64,000 bases of DNA from Polyangia bacterium (lineage in GTDB: Bacteria > Myxococcota_A > Polyangia > Fen-1088). Positions 45,487-53,696 of this stretch are shown piece after piece; within the stretch, counting starts at the first letter, position 1; every line of letters starts with the position of its first letter. The stretch is taken from NCBI GenBank assembly GCA_036268875.1, contig DATATI010000079.1, forward strand, positions 124,001 through 188,000, in the 5' to 3' direction. Made by a program: the position numbers and the translations under genes. A model generated the notes under the pieces. It worked only from the letters and a program-made list of their open reading frames with translations, was not told the DNA's origin and made no database searches.

Positions 45487-46632
45487 GTGGCCGACTCTTA
45501 TCCAGAGACGCTGTGGAAGTTTCCGGTTCGCGTGGCGTCGTTGCTGGCGGCGCCGCGGGCGGCGCTGGGCCGCGTGGACGCCCGGGGCGGCGGCTTCCGC
45601 GACGCCGTCATCTTGACCCTGGTCGGCGTGGTGGCGTTCCGTTTTCAGCAGCTGGCCGAGGCGGTCTTGGCCTTCAGCCAGCCTTCGCAAGGAGCGATCG
45701 GGCACCTGCTGGGGATATGGAGCAACGAGCTTTCCGAAGCGGCGATGGTGGTGATTCCAGCGGCGCTGTTGCTGACCCTGCTGGCGGGCCCGCGCCGCGA
45801 TCCAGCGCAAGATCTGGAATTGGGCGCCGCTTGCTATGCCGCCTTCTTCGTGGTGCGGGGAATGGCCCGGGCGGTGAACGCCCTGGTCGGCGAGCGCGTG
45901 ATTCCCGACGTCGTGAGCTATGTGCCGGCGGCCATCGCCACGCTGTGGTTGATGGGGCACGCGCTGCTGGTGATTCGCCAGCGCTCGCCCGCGCCGGTCG
46001 AGCCCGACGGGACGACCGTGCCCGCGACCGGGGTGCCACCGCCGCCCGTCGCTGCGGCGCCGGTGGTCGACGGTCCGGCCGCGCCCGCCGCGCGCCGCCG
46101 CCTGGTCGGCGCCCTGCTGTTCGTCGCCACCGTGGTGGGCGTCGGCCTAGGCGGCAACGCGGTGTGGGCGGTGCGCCGCCTGGACGCCCTCAAGCCAATG
46201 GCGCGCGGCCTGGACGCGCCCGACTTCGAGCTGCCGCGCATCGACGGCCATCCAGGTTCGCTGGCGTTGTCGTCGTTCCGCGGCCAGGTGGTCCTGCTGG
46301 ATTTTTGGGCCACCTGGTGCGGCCCGTGCATCGAGATGATCCCGACCATGGAGAAGCTGCACCACGAGTGGAGCGGGCGCGGGGTGGCGTTTTTGGGCGT
46401 GAACTCCGATGGGGGGCAGACCAGCGAGGGCGACATCCGCGCGTTCTTGCAGCGGCGGCCGGCGCCTTACCCGATGGTCCTCGACGACGGGCGGGCCAAC
46501 GCCGCCTATCGCATCAGGTTCCTGCCGCAGTTCGTGCTGATCTCGCGCGAGGGGACAGTGTTGCGATCGTTCACCGGCATCAACGGCAGCGCCACCTTCG
46601 GCGAGGCGTTCGAACGCGCGCTGGCGCAGTAA
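45487..46632 (+). CDS. Yip1-like membrane domain fused to a TlpA-type thioredoxin
   Basis: A 381-residue protein starting at GTG. Residues 1-165 form a Yip1-like domain with about four or five membrane segments (AVILTLVGVVAFRF, MVVIPAALLLTLLAG, SYVPAAIATLWLMGHALLVI). A Pro/Ala linker leads to another membrane helix (RRLVGALLFVATVVGVGLGG). Residues 240-381 are a TlpA/ResA-like thioredoxin with the redox motif WATWCGPC, NSDGGQTSEGDI and the cis-Pro in RFLPQFVLISREG. The catalytic part faces the periplasm. It may reduce or oxidise exported thiols, for example apocytochrome Cys. I do not recall this fusion as a standard architecture. Confidence 0.85.
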   Translation: MADSYPETLWKFPVRVASLLAAPRAALGRVDARGGGFRDAVILTLVGVVAFRFQQLAEAVLAFSQPSQGAIGHLLGIWSNELSEAAMVVIPAALLLTLLAGPRRDPAQDLELGAACYAAFFVVRGMARAVNALVGERVIPDVVSYVPAAIATLWLMGHALLVIRQRSPAPVEPDGTTVPATGVPPPPVAAAPVVDGPAAPAARRRLVGALLFVATVVGVGLGGNAVWAVRRLDALKPMARGLDAPDFELPRIDGHPGSLALSSFRGQVVLLDFWATWCGPCIEMIPTMEKLHHEWSGRGVAFLGVNSDGGQTSEGDIRAFLQRRPAPYPMVLDDGRANAAYRIRFLPQFVLISREGTVLRSFTGINGSATFGEAFERALAQ

Positions 46633-46851: not shown

Positions 46852-46940
46852 TTAGTCCTTCGTGCCTCCGGAGCCCAAGGTAACGCCTTCCGCTTCGTGA
46901 GGCGAGCCGTCCGCGCGCAGCTGCGATAAAATTGTCAGGC

Positions 46941-48017
46941 GTGCGTTTGGGGACGTGCATCTTGGTCGAGCTCGGTCTGGCGGGGACGCTCCTCGCGGGG
47001 CTGGGCGTGGTCGGCGCGCGCGGCGTGGGCGAGCTTCGGCACACGCTGGCCAGCCGGCCCATTCACGCCCCGCCCGAGCCGACACCTGCGCCGATGCTGG
47101 CGGTGCGGCGCGATCTGTCGCAGGTGCCGGACCTGCGCGTGGCCATCGAATCGGCCGGCACCTTCCTGGGCATGGCCGACGAGCTGTTGCTGGAACGGGT
47201 GCGCACGCAGCCCATCGTGCGCTTCAAGTTGAACCATGGCGGATCGTCGCTGTCGTTCCGGGTCGACTTCGCCGACGGCTCGCGGGCGGCCTTCAAACCG
47301 GCGCAGACCAATTCGCAGACCATCCCGCGCAGGGAGGTGGCGGCGTATCGCCTCAATCGCCTGCTGGGATTGAACGCCGTGCCGCCCGCCGCTCCGCGCG
47401 CGGTCAGCCGCGACGAACTGCTGGCCCACCTGCACCCGGACAGCGCGCCCGCGCTGCCGCGCATCCAGGCCGAGACCATCTTCGGCCCCACCGGCAAGAC
47501 GCTGGGCGAGGCGTCGTACTGGATCCCGATCATCAAAGACTCGGGTTTCGACACCCCGACCGGCAAGCAGCAGATGGCCGCCTGGCTGACCGCCGGCGAA
47601 CCGATCCCCGTCGACCAGCGCGCGATCGCCGCCCAGCTTTCCGATCTGGTGGTGTTCGATTTTCTCACCTCGAACCCGGATCGCTTTTCGGGCGGCAACA
47701 TGAAGGTGTCGCCCGACGGCACGCAGCTTTATTTCATGGACAACACCATGTCCTTCTTCGTCGAGCCGGAGGGCAACCCGAAGACGCGCCAGATGCTGGA
47801 GAAGACCCAGCGCTTCTCGCGCTCGCTGTACCAGGCGCTGGAACGCATCAGCGTGCCGACCCTGCAGCGCATCCTGTCGGAGGAGGACGGCGCGCCGTAC
47901 GAGATCCTCACCGCGGCCGAGATCGGCTCGGTGGTCTCGCGCCGCGACGTCGTGCGCCACCACATTGATGAGCTGATCGCGGCGATGGGGCCCCGCGCGG
48001 TGCTGGTTTTTCCCTGA
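46941..48017 (+). CDS. FAM20-like secreted kinase homologue
   Basis: About 358 residues. The GTG at 46941 is the probable start. An N-terminal hydrophobic segment (VELGLAGTLLAGLGVVGA) is a signal anchor, so the body is periplasmic. The fold looks like the FAM20/Four-jointed secreted kinase family: the ATP-binding Lys in AAFKPAQ (about 119); the block REVAAYRLNRLLGLNAVPP, which aligns by eye with the FAM20 Glu-bearing helix; the catalytic Asp in VVFDFLTSNPDRFSGGN (about 247); and the metal Asp in LYFMDNTMSF (about 267). In animals these kinases phosphorylate secreted proteins or glycans. All key residues are present, so activity is plausible. The substrate is unknown. It precedes rimO by 52 bases. 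Confidence 0.75.
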   Translation: MRLGTCILVELGLAGTLLAGLGVVGARGVGELRHTLASRPIHAPPEPTPAPMLAVRRDLSQVPDLRVAIESAGTFLGMADELLLERVRTQPIVRFKLNHGGSSLSFRVDFADGSRAAFKPAQTNSQTIPRREVAAYRLNRLLGLNAVPPAAPRAVSRDELLAHLHPDSAPALPRIQAETIFGPTGKTLGEASYWIPIIKDSGFDTPTGKQQMAAWLTAGEPIPVDQRAIAAQLSDLVVFDFLTSNPDRFSGGNMKVSPDGTQLYFMDNTMSFFVEPEGNPKTRQMLEKTQRFSRSLYQALERISVPTLQRILSEEDGAPYEILTAAEIGSVVSRRDVVRHHIDELIAAMGPRAVLVFP

Positions 48018-48069: not shown

Positions 48070-49413
48070 ATGAACGTCCATTTTGTATCGCTCGGCTGTC
48101 CCAAGAACCGCGTCGACACCGAGGTCATGCTGGGCCACACCGCCGGCGCCGGGCACACCGTGGTAGGGGCGCCCGAGGATGCCGACGTCATCGTGGTCAA
48201 CACCTGCGGTTTCATCGGCGAGGCCAAGCAAGAGTCGATCGACGCCATCTTGGAGATGGCCCGCCACAAAGAGGCCGGCACCTGCAAGCGCCTGGTGGTG
48301 GCCGGCTGCCTGTCGCAGCGTTACCCGAAAGAGCTGGCCGACGAGATGCCGGAGGTCGACACCTTCATCGGCACCGACGAGGTGGGCCTGATCGCCGACG
48401 CCATCGGCGGCGGCACCCGCCGGGTCCAGGTGGCCGAGACGCCGCGCTTTCTGTACGACGACATTGCTCCGCGCCGGCCGTCGATGGCCACCCACACCGC
48501 CTACGTCAAGATCGCCGAGGGCTGCGATCGCCCGTGCGCCTTCTGCATCATCCCCAAGTTGCGCGGCCCGCAGCGCAGCCGGCAGCCTGATTCGGTGGTG
48601 CGCGAAGCGCAGGCGCTGGCCGCCGCCGGCACGAAGGAGATCTGTCTGGTGGCGCAGGATCTCACCACCTACGGCACCGATCTGGATCCCACCGCGCCGC
48701 CGACGCTGGAATCGCTGCTGGCGCAGCTGGCGGCGGTCGACGGCCTGCGCTGGATCCGTCTGCACTATGCCTATCCCAGCGCCTGCACCGACGGTCTGCT
48801 GGACGTGATGGCCCGGGAGCCGCGGGTAGCCAAGTACCTGGACGTGCCGATCCAGCACATCGACAGCGGCGTCTTGAAATCGATGCGCCGCGGGTACGGC
48901 GAGCGCGCCGTACGCGCCCTGTGCGAACGGGTGCGCGCCCGGGTCCCCGGCGCCACGTTGCGCACCACCTTCATCGTCGGTCACCCGGGCGAAACCGACG
49001 CGGCGTTCGCCCGGCTGTGCGACTTCGTGCGCGAGGCTGATCTGGATCGGGTCGGCGTCTTCAATTACTCGCGCGAGGAGGGCACCGTCGCCGCGCTGCT
49101 GCCCGGGCGGGTCCCGAAAAAAGAGATCGACGCCCGCCGCCGCGAGCTGCTGCGCATCCAGCGCGACATCTCGAAGAAAAAACTGCGCGCCCTGCGCGAC
49201 CAGACCATCGAAGTCCTGGTCGAAGGCCCCTCCGACGAGTCCGAGTACTTGTTGATGGGTCGCCACGAAGGCCAGGCCCCCGAGATCGACGGCCAGGTCT
49301 ATCTGTCGCTGCCCGAAAGCGCCGGCGACGCGCCGCCGCCGGCGGCCGGCACGTTGGTGCGAGCGACCGTCACGCACACCGCCGAGTACGATCTGGCCGC
49401 GACGATCGTCTGA
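48070..49413 (+). CDS. rimO: Ribosomal protein uS12 methylthiotransferase
   Basis: A 447-residue radical-SAM enzyme that adds a methylthio group to the conserved Asp of uS12. The N-terminal MTTase domain carries three Cys for the first 4Fe-4S cluster (SLGCPKNRVDTE, NTCGFIGEAKQESID, VVAGCLSQRYP). The radical-SAM CxxxCxxC is CDRPCAFC in EGCDRPCAFCIIPKLRGPQ. A C-terminal TRAM domain (about 380-447) binds RNA or the ribosome. The short first part (MNVHFVSLGCPKNRVDTE) is RimO-type rather than MiaB-type. Confidence 0.95.
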   Translation: MNVHFVSLGCPKNRVDTEVMLGHTAGAGHTVVGAPEDADVIVVNTCGFIGEAKQESIDAILEMARHKEAGTCKRLVVAGCLSQRYPKELADEMPEVDTFIGTDEVGLIADAIGGGTRRVQVAETPRFLYDDIAPRRPSMATHTAYVKIAEGCDRPCAFCIIPKLRGPQRSRQPDSVVREAQALAAAGTKEICLVAQDLTTYGTDLDPTAPPTLESLLAQLAAVDGLRWIRLHYAYPSACTDGLLDVMAREPRVAKYLDVPIQHIDSGVLKSMRRGYGERAVRALCERVRARVPGATLRTTFIVGHPGETDAAFARLCDFVREADLDRVGVFNYSREEGTVAALLPGRVPKKEIDARRRELLRIQRDISKKKLRALRDQTIEVLVEGPSDESEYLLMGRHEGQAPEIDGQVYLSLPESAGDAPPPAAGTLVRATVTHTAEYDLAATIV

Positions 49414-51879: not shown

Positions 51880-53619
51880 TTACAACTTGGTCGCCTGATC
51901 CGCAGCCGCCGTGTGGGCCCGGTTTTGCGCCGCCGACCGCAGCTCGTGGCCAGTCGGGCCAACGCCCAGCTTGGCGCGCGCCGACTGGCCGTGTCCGGCG
52001 CCGAGCACATCGCGCAGGTAGGCGGCGTACTGAAACGTGTCCGAGTGGTGTTCGTTGTGACAGCCAAGGCAAGTGGTCTCGGGCGTGTCACGGTGAACGC
52101 TGCTCGGTTCTTCCAGCCCTTTTTCGGCGACGTGGATCGATCCTGGGCCGTGGCAAGTTTCGCACTGCACGTCGGAGAGGCCCTTGCTGTGACCCAGGCT
52201 GGTGCCGCCGACCTGGCCGTAACCGGTGACGTGGCAGGCGACGCATTTGTAATCGGCTTGTTTGCCGGCGGCCACCAGCGTCTGCCAGGCTTCGGCGTGA
52301 ACGGTGGTCTTCCAGAAAGCAGCAGCCGACTTGTGGCAGGTCACGCACTTGTTCATGCCGACGTAGAAGGCTCGCCCCGGTTCGGGCGGCGGTGGCGGCA
52401 GGGCATGCTTGAGGTTGACGGCGGCGATCTTGGCGTCGAGGCGCTTCATCGCCGCGCCCATCATTCCGTCCCGGCCGAGCTCGCGGTTCAAGGCGATCAA
52501 GCGATTGGTGAAATAGTTGCCCGTCGACGGCGGGGTAAAAGGCAGGGCCAACCGCGCGCGTTCGGCGGCCATTTCGCCGCGCTGGGCGCGCCTGCTGGCC
52601 ACGAACGCGGTGTCGCCGCTGCTGCCTGACCAGCGCGCCAGATCGTCGTCCAGCCGTTTGATCGCGGCATCCAGCTCGGCCATGCGCGCCTGGTTGGCTT
52701 CGGCGCCGCCGGCGTCGACCAGCGCGCCGCCGCCATGGCGTAAGACCAGATCGATCCGCCCCACGCGCTGCAGCTCGTCCGCCGGCGAGACCAAGAAGGC
52801 CGCGCCGACTTTTTCCGCCCGGGTCGAGCCTTTGCCCACTTGCCGCCCCGCCACCACAAAATCAGCGCCGGCGTCGCGGGCCACCCGTCGGGCGATCGAT
52901 CGATCGACCGGCGCCAGCACCACGACAATCTCCGCGCCTTCGCGGCGCAGGCGCTCGACGTCGCGGCTGGCGGCCTTGGTCGGTTCTTCGCCGGCCACGC
53001 CCAGGGTCGACGCCAGCGCCGGATCGGCCACGCCGACCAGCCCGATCTTGACGCCCCCGACGGTCTCGATGCGCGCCGGTTCGATCACCGCGGCGCCGCC
53101 CAGATTCGAGGCCAGCCGTTTCGGCTGCACCAGTCCCAGGCCGCCAATCAGGTCAGTTTCGCCGAGGCCCGCGCCGCGCAGCCCGAGGTTGGTCAGTTCA
53201 GTGGCGAGAAACTTGGCCCGCAGATCGTCCGCCGGACGTTCTTTCGGCGACACGCCACCCTCGCCGTACAGCAAGCCGCCCGCGTCCACCAGCAGCGTGG
53301 CTGCGCCTTGCTCGCGCGCCGAGCGCACCAGCGCCGCGTAGCGCGCGATGTCGCCCAGCGGATCGCTGGTGCAGCCGCACGGCTCCAGGGTGCCGTGCAC
53401 CTCGGCCGTGTAAAAGATGCTGACCCGGCGTTCGCCGGCGCCGGTCGCCGATCTTTCTACCGCGGCGGCGACGGCGGCTGGAGCACGCAGACCGACGCCC
53501 GGCAGGCCGGCGAGGGCGATCGTCGCCAGGCTGACCGCCAGACTTCCCCACAACACCGCTCGTGCGCTCGGCAAAGCGCCCTCACTATGCAACCATTGCC
53601 GCCGCCAGCCAATTGCCAT
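51880..53619 (-). CDS. Metallophosphoesterase-like domain fused to tetraheme cytochrome c
   Basis: A 579-residue exported protein. A signal segment (about 19-45) precedes a 5'-nucleotidase/UshA-like domain (about 66-300): SIFYTAEVHGTLEPCGC aligns with the first metal block, but the usual Asp-x-His reads AEVH, DAGGLLYG replaces the Asp-Leu-Phe form, and GLGETDL stands where GNHE is expected. Metal ligands are thus worn. A helical linker (310-415) is followed by four CxxCH heme sites: CVTCH (426-430), CVACH (460-464), CETCH (487-491) and CLGCH (518-522), with His-rich surroundings (CHNEHHSD). It probably carries electrons in the periplasm or at the surface; an enzymatic phosphoesterase role is doubtful. 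The start is the ATG at 53619. Confidence 0.85.
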   Translation of the reverse strand: MAIGWRRQWLHSEGALPSARAVLWGSLAVSLATIALAGLPGVGLRAPAAVAAAVERSATGAGERRVSIFYTAEVHGTLEPCGCTSDPLGDIARYAALVRSAREQGAATLLVDAGGLLYGEGGVSPKERPADDLRAKFLATELTNLGLRGAGLGETDLIGGLGLVQPKRLASNLGGAAVIEPARIETVGGVKIGLVGVADPALASTLGVAGEEPTKAASRDVERLRREGAEIVVVLAPVDRSIARRVARDAGADFVVAGRQVGKGSTRAEKVGAAFLVSPADELQRVGRIDLVLRHGGGALVDAGGAEANQARMAELDAAIKRLDDDLARWSGSSGDTAFVASRRAQRGEMAAERARLALPFTPPSTGNYFTNRLIALNRELGRDGMMGAAMKRLDAKIAAVNLKHALPPPPPEPGRAFYVGMNKCVTCHKSAAAFWKTTVHAEAWQTLVAAGKQADYKCVACHVTGYGQVGGTSLGHSKGLSDVQCETCHGPGSIHVAEKGLEEPSSVHRDTPETTCLGCHNEHHSDTFQYAAYLRDVLGAGHGQSARAKLGVGPTGHELRSAAQNRAHTAAADQATKL

Positions 53620-53696
53620 CACGGCAACAGTGTTGGACCTTGACAGCGTCCGTTGCGGCCGATAGCCTCCCGTCCTCGATTTCGAAGGAAGACCTG

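Follow-up and report, generated by a model that had tools for sequence, protein, structure and literature searches.

The FAM20 kinases, members of the animal secreted-kinase family, were called a eukaryote- or metazoan-specific cluster by one survey (PMC9758233), and bacteria go unmentioned in the 2018 paper on FAM20 structure and evolution. Their activity needs an acidic residue in the long Kbeta3-Kalpha3 loop (Glu306 in human FAM20C, Glu213 in the worm protein, Asp152 in the hydra protein), and four disulfides are common to FAM20B and FAM20C (PMC5865150). Animal FAM20 kinases act on secreted proteins and on sugars; one member, FAM20A, is a pseudokinase. Among bacterial proteins, similarity to FAM20C was reported for the CotH spore-coat kinases of Bacillus (PMC12189002), which reportedly lack the DFG metal motif and sandwich the adenine between two aromatic residues.

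We analyzed a 64,000-nucleotide stretch of a Polyangia genome assembly (6.15 Mb, 95 contigs), referred to below as the window, in which a sequence-only reading had identified a FAM20-like kinase with a membrane anchor. Based on sequence comparison and structure modelling, we regard this protein as probably an active, periplasm-facing FAM20-like phosphotransferase that would act on a glycan or a small molecule. The features of the locus are listed in Table 1; the open reading frame, from the GTG to the stop codon ending at 48017, was correctly delimited in the sequence-only reading. A TTG codon nine bases 5' of the GTG, at 46932, is a possible alternative start, as against the start resembling VRLxxY/C that is common to the relatives of the window kinase. 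A promoter scan gave no sigma-70-like site.

Table 1. Features of the FAM20-like kinase gene and its conserved neighbours in the window.
Feature	Position	Strand	Basis or remark
FAM20-like kinase gene, 358 aa	46941..48017	+	GTG start at 46941; conserved across Myxococcota
Probable membrane anchor, hydrophobic segment, residues 6-24	46956..47012	+	Mean hydropathy 2.12 over 19 residues; long helix in model
Pro/Ala-rich disordered linker, residues 39-69	47055..47147	+	pLDDT <50
FAM20-like kinase domain (predicted), residues ~70-358	47148..48014	+	FAM20 matched by Foldseek and VIA-align
Gly-rich NHGGSSLSFR motif, residues 98-107	47232..47261	+	G100, G101 and R107 invariant
FKP motif, K119 (codon 47295-47297) as beta-3 Lys	47292..47300	+	Invariant in the 20-relative alignment; aligns with FKP of FAM20C
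PRREVAAYRLNRLLGLNAVPP, E132 as helix-C Glu	47325..47387	+	Aligned with FAM20 NAEIAAFHLDRIL..VPP
FDFLTSNPDRFSGGN catalytic segment (D247, R248, N253)	47655..47699	+	Conservation in alignments of relatives
LYFMDNTMSF metal-binding segment (D267, N268)	47727..47756	+	Conservation in alignments of relatives
Membrane protein, TlpA/AhpC-type thioredoxin domain at C-terminus	45487..46632	+	Pfam AhpC-TSA 3e-20; conserved neighbour by synteny
Small Cys-rich zinc-ribbon-like ORF, 67 aa	46648..46851	-	Divergent from kinase; conserved neighbour
RimO-like radical SAM methylthiotransferase	48070..49413	+	52 bases downstream of kinase; conserved neighbour

In a single-sequence phmmer search of PDB sequences, the top match of the window protein alone was FAM20C (E 1.6e-4). 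A profile built from 20 relatives strengthened this to 1.2e-21 and also found FAM20A (2e-16) and a FAM20B-type protein of hydra (3.5e-10); these three were the only significant proteins, the next being the type II phosphatidylinositol 4-kinase PI4K2 at E 0.49. With a wider profile from 42 sequences, FAM20C was matched from end to end (E 7e-30), while PI4K2 remained marginal at 0.001. The Pfam model Fam20C (PF06702) gave the window protein 14.3 bits, which is under its cut-off of 26.8 bits. The same model was matched by 16 of the 20 relatives, and matches above the cut-off occur in 12 of 141 genomes of the phylum, with 38.6 bits for the relative of the window protein in genome G025 and at most 67.9 bits for paralogues. 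Because some bacterial relatives thus exceed the cut-off, the family is already visible to Pfam.

The AlphaFold2 model computed with the 20-relative profile (pLDDT 88, pTM 0.77) shows residues 39-69 as disordered. The sequence-only reading had named a different fold in the model as one result that would refute it, and the predicted fold instead agrees with FAM20: FAM20 chains were the top 28 Foldseek matches of the model, and VIA-align superimposed FAM20 structures on it with Z-scores of 23-25 over 277-284 residues, i.e. the entire kinase domain. PI4K2 followed as the second-best fold (Z 16-17), then CtkA (14-15) and HipA-type kinases (about 12 or less). CotH is absent from the list of folds, an absence that excludes nothing. 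Sequence, profiles and model together support a membrane-anchored protein with the kinase fold of FAM20.

The catalytic motifs support the same assignment. K119, E132, D247 and D267 sit at the positions of the FAM20 beta-3 Lys, helix-C Glu, catalytic Asp and metal Asp, and further matches concern the VPP after the helix-C Glu, the NxDR containing the catalytic Asp and the DN of the metal site. The FKP Lys, the Glu helix, VPP, FDFLTSNPDRF and FMDN are all found in the order first proposed, and these motifs are invariant among relatives. Likewise, K119, E132, D247, R248, N253, D267 and N268 do not vary among the 20 aligned relatives and are kept, with few exceptions, in some 85 more remote sequences. 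We considered a chance match of motifs, which is ruled out by the profile E-values (1.2e-21 and 7e-30) and the predicted fold.

The relatives of this genome are Myxococcota. The gene is present in all 17 other searched members of the window's family (58-70% identity), and among 41 further genomes from its class, 32 carry a homologue. Across the phylum, 51 of 189 genomes match at E <=1e-8, some of them as many as six or seven times; a search for plasmid-borne relatives gave no match. Divergent FAM20-like domains were also observed in another class of the phylum (L110, L112, L114); L110 and L114 probably have a membrane segment at the N-terminus, and several of these genomes carry two or three copies. 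A separate subfamily comprises L123 (4954-5826), L125 and L126; its members reach 67.9 bits with the Pfam Fam20C model, and their N-termini resemble lipoprotein signals. A literature search for myxobacterial FAM20 found no paper on these proteins, its one pertinent hit being a review of bacterial phosphorelays, although an earlier mention is possible.

On which side of the membrane the kinase domain lies was assessed from the N-terminus and from the relatives. The charge flanking the hydrophobic helix is balanced in the window protein, with +2 on each side, so that the positive-inside rule gives no decision on topology. A lipobox was found in 24 of 86 relatives, nearly all of them distant paralogues, compared to 2.6% of composition-matched shuffles, and a hydrophobic or lipoprotein N-terminus in 83 of 86 compared to about 29% of shuffles; these counts come from a rough signal classifier with script-chosen start sites, and a few of the 86 rows are duplicated. 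Cys makes up 0.28% of the family's kinase domains, compared to 0.71% of PanK3, 1.07% of the PALP enzyme and up to 2.7% of other neighbouring proteins. Taken together, the lipoprotein signals of the paralogues and the scarcity of Cys favour, by homology, a domain outside the cytoplasm. The extracytoplasmic location assumed in the sequence-only reading is thus supported indirectly, through the family, whereas the balanced charge of the helix in the window protein itself does not speak for it. The hydrophobic helix contains a conserved Glu, which led us to consider a leader of the type IV prepilin kind; we rejected it, since the alignment does not consistently show Gly ahead of the possible cleavage site.

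The gene order in the window is PanK3, an unknown ORF, the membrane-bound TlpA-type thioredoxin protein, the divergent Cys-rich ORF, the kinase, RimO, NadA and the PALP enzyme, and much of this order is kept in several families. The Cys-rich ORF has no Pfam match and adjoins the kinase in 12 other loci. Another conserved gene close to the kinase in the window's family (51883-53622, minus strand) encodes a multi-haem domain of the cytochrome c554 type. In 16 loci of related families, an MFS transporter gene (Pfam MFS_1 3.8e-20) lies downstream of the kinase on the same strand, either directly after it or after an intervening gene for a HEAT-repeat protein with Cys pairs near its N-terminus. Examples of this tandem, often with the HEAT-repeat protein, are L053:6501-8177, L063:6843-9270, L065:6588-9583 and L067:6900-9433. 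Six of the 16 MFS loci (L053, L056, L059, L063, L068 and L081), some on short contigs, are without the PanK3 and RimO synteny, which implies that the link of kinase and transporter probably reflects more than shared ancestry of the gene order. None of the six genomes searched in the window's family has the MFS gene, against five of six others, so that the functional link may fail for the window member. The sequence-only reading had further envisaged an action on surface proteins coded in the window; no such link was found, and it is the MFS transporter to which the neighbouring genes of the relatives point.

These results are best accommodated by a protein held in the inner membrane by one N-terminal transmembrane helix, from which a flexible linker would lead to a complete FAM20-type kinase domain facing the periplasm. 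With roles taken over from FAM20, K119, E132, N253 and D267 would bind the nucleotide-metal complex and D247 would act as the catalytic base. Our confidence is lower for the extracytoplasmic placement of the kinase domain and for the kind of substrate; an envelope glycan or a small molecule seems somewhat likelier than a casein-like protein, given that FAM20's substrate loop is missing and that related families have the MFS tandem. Two further points weigh against the overall reading: free ATP is generally considered scarce in the periplasm, and the catalytic acidic residue of FAM20 is missing together with its loop.

That the substrate could instead be Ser/Thr of envelope or secreted proteins, as for FAM20C or CotH, is a possibility of lower standing. 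FAM20C scores best of the FAM20s in the profile searches, and CotH sets the precedent of a bacterial FAM20C-like kinase acting on structural coat proteins (PMC12189002; PMC7821199). However, the Kbeta3-Kalpha3 loop, through which FAM20C engages its substrate and dimerizes, is missing here, the relatives are linked to a transporter, and no co-encoded Ser-rich substrate was noticed, albeit without a systematic search. We consider it unlikely that the N-terminus of the helix lies outside and the kinase domain in the cytoplasm, where it would act, as PI4K2 or SCO1664-type proteins do, on a cytoplasmic substrate or a membrane lipid. The positive charge on both sides of the helix would allow this arrangement, ATP is present in the cytoplasm, PI4K2 is the second-best fold, and a weak match to the SCO1664 family was obtained for all 20 members; yet lipoprotein or secretory signals occur on distant paralogues that share the catalytic motifs, and the kinase domains are Cys-poor. 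It appears more improbable still that the fold was kept for other chemistry, such as AMPylation or the use of a non-ATP donor, or by a pseudokinase. AMPylation by SelO is a precedent within the kinase fold (PMC10870513), and both the missing acidic residue of the FAM20 loop and the scarcity of periplasmic ATP would fit, but the invariance of the Lys, the Glu, the catalytic Asp, the Asn and the metal Asp would be unusual for a pseudokinase. The periplasm-facing phosphotransferase therefore remains the reading that we prefer.

A widespread bacterial relative of FAM20, mostly equipped with export or anchor signals, would offer a simpler model for extracytoplasmic phosphorylation, and both the source of phosphate in the periplasm and the origin of animal FAM20 would become testable questions. 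In trees, animal FAM20 groups with the myxobacterial L123, L125 and L126 (support 100/99, or 99/91 with L123 alone), whereas the window protein is placed in another well-supported group. As only two animal FAM20 sequences on a long branch were included and the bacteria were Myxococcota only, this grouping hints at the origin of FAM20 without demonstrating it. On a speculative view, to which we give rather little credence, Myxococcota would possess a large system of many paralogous FAM20-like kinases, with lipid or membrane anchors, for the phosphorylation of extracytoplasmic molecules, and animal FAM20 would stem from one of its subfamilies.

The comparison with described systems delimits the position of the new family. 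CotH was not among the reported Pfam or PDB matches of the window protein. The SCO1664 family (TIGR03843) resembles it weakly and at the catalytic segment, the score of 25.7 bits being far under the curated cut-off of 172.4 bits, and the type II phosphatidylinositol 4-kinases combine the second-best fold (Z ~17) with a marginal sequence match. In contrast to FAM20, the window protein is without the Kbeta3-Kalpha3 loop: the region is about 12 residues shorter, the FKP Lys and the helix-C Glu lying 13 residues apart, and has no equivalent acidic residue. Its catalytic segment reads DRFSGGN, in keeping with the form DR[FYW][ST]GGN that is typical among bacterial relatives, where FAM20 has DRHHYE with a substrate-contacting His. 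The FAM20 disulfides are missing as well, as the kinase domain contains zero Cys. Membership in the animal secreted-kinase family, as originally suggested, thus stands as regards fold and catalytic positions and fails as regards loop, DRHHYE, disulfides, Pfam cut-off and tree grouping; judged by these sequence features, the window protein is not FAM20 proper. What it has in common with animal FAM20 is the whole predicted kinase-domain fold with the C-terminal helices, and it may also share the extracytoplasmic location; its family is a distinct bacterial branch, nearer in predicted fold to FAM20 than to PI4K2 or HipA.
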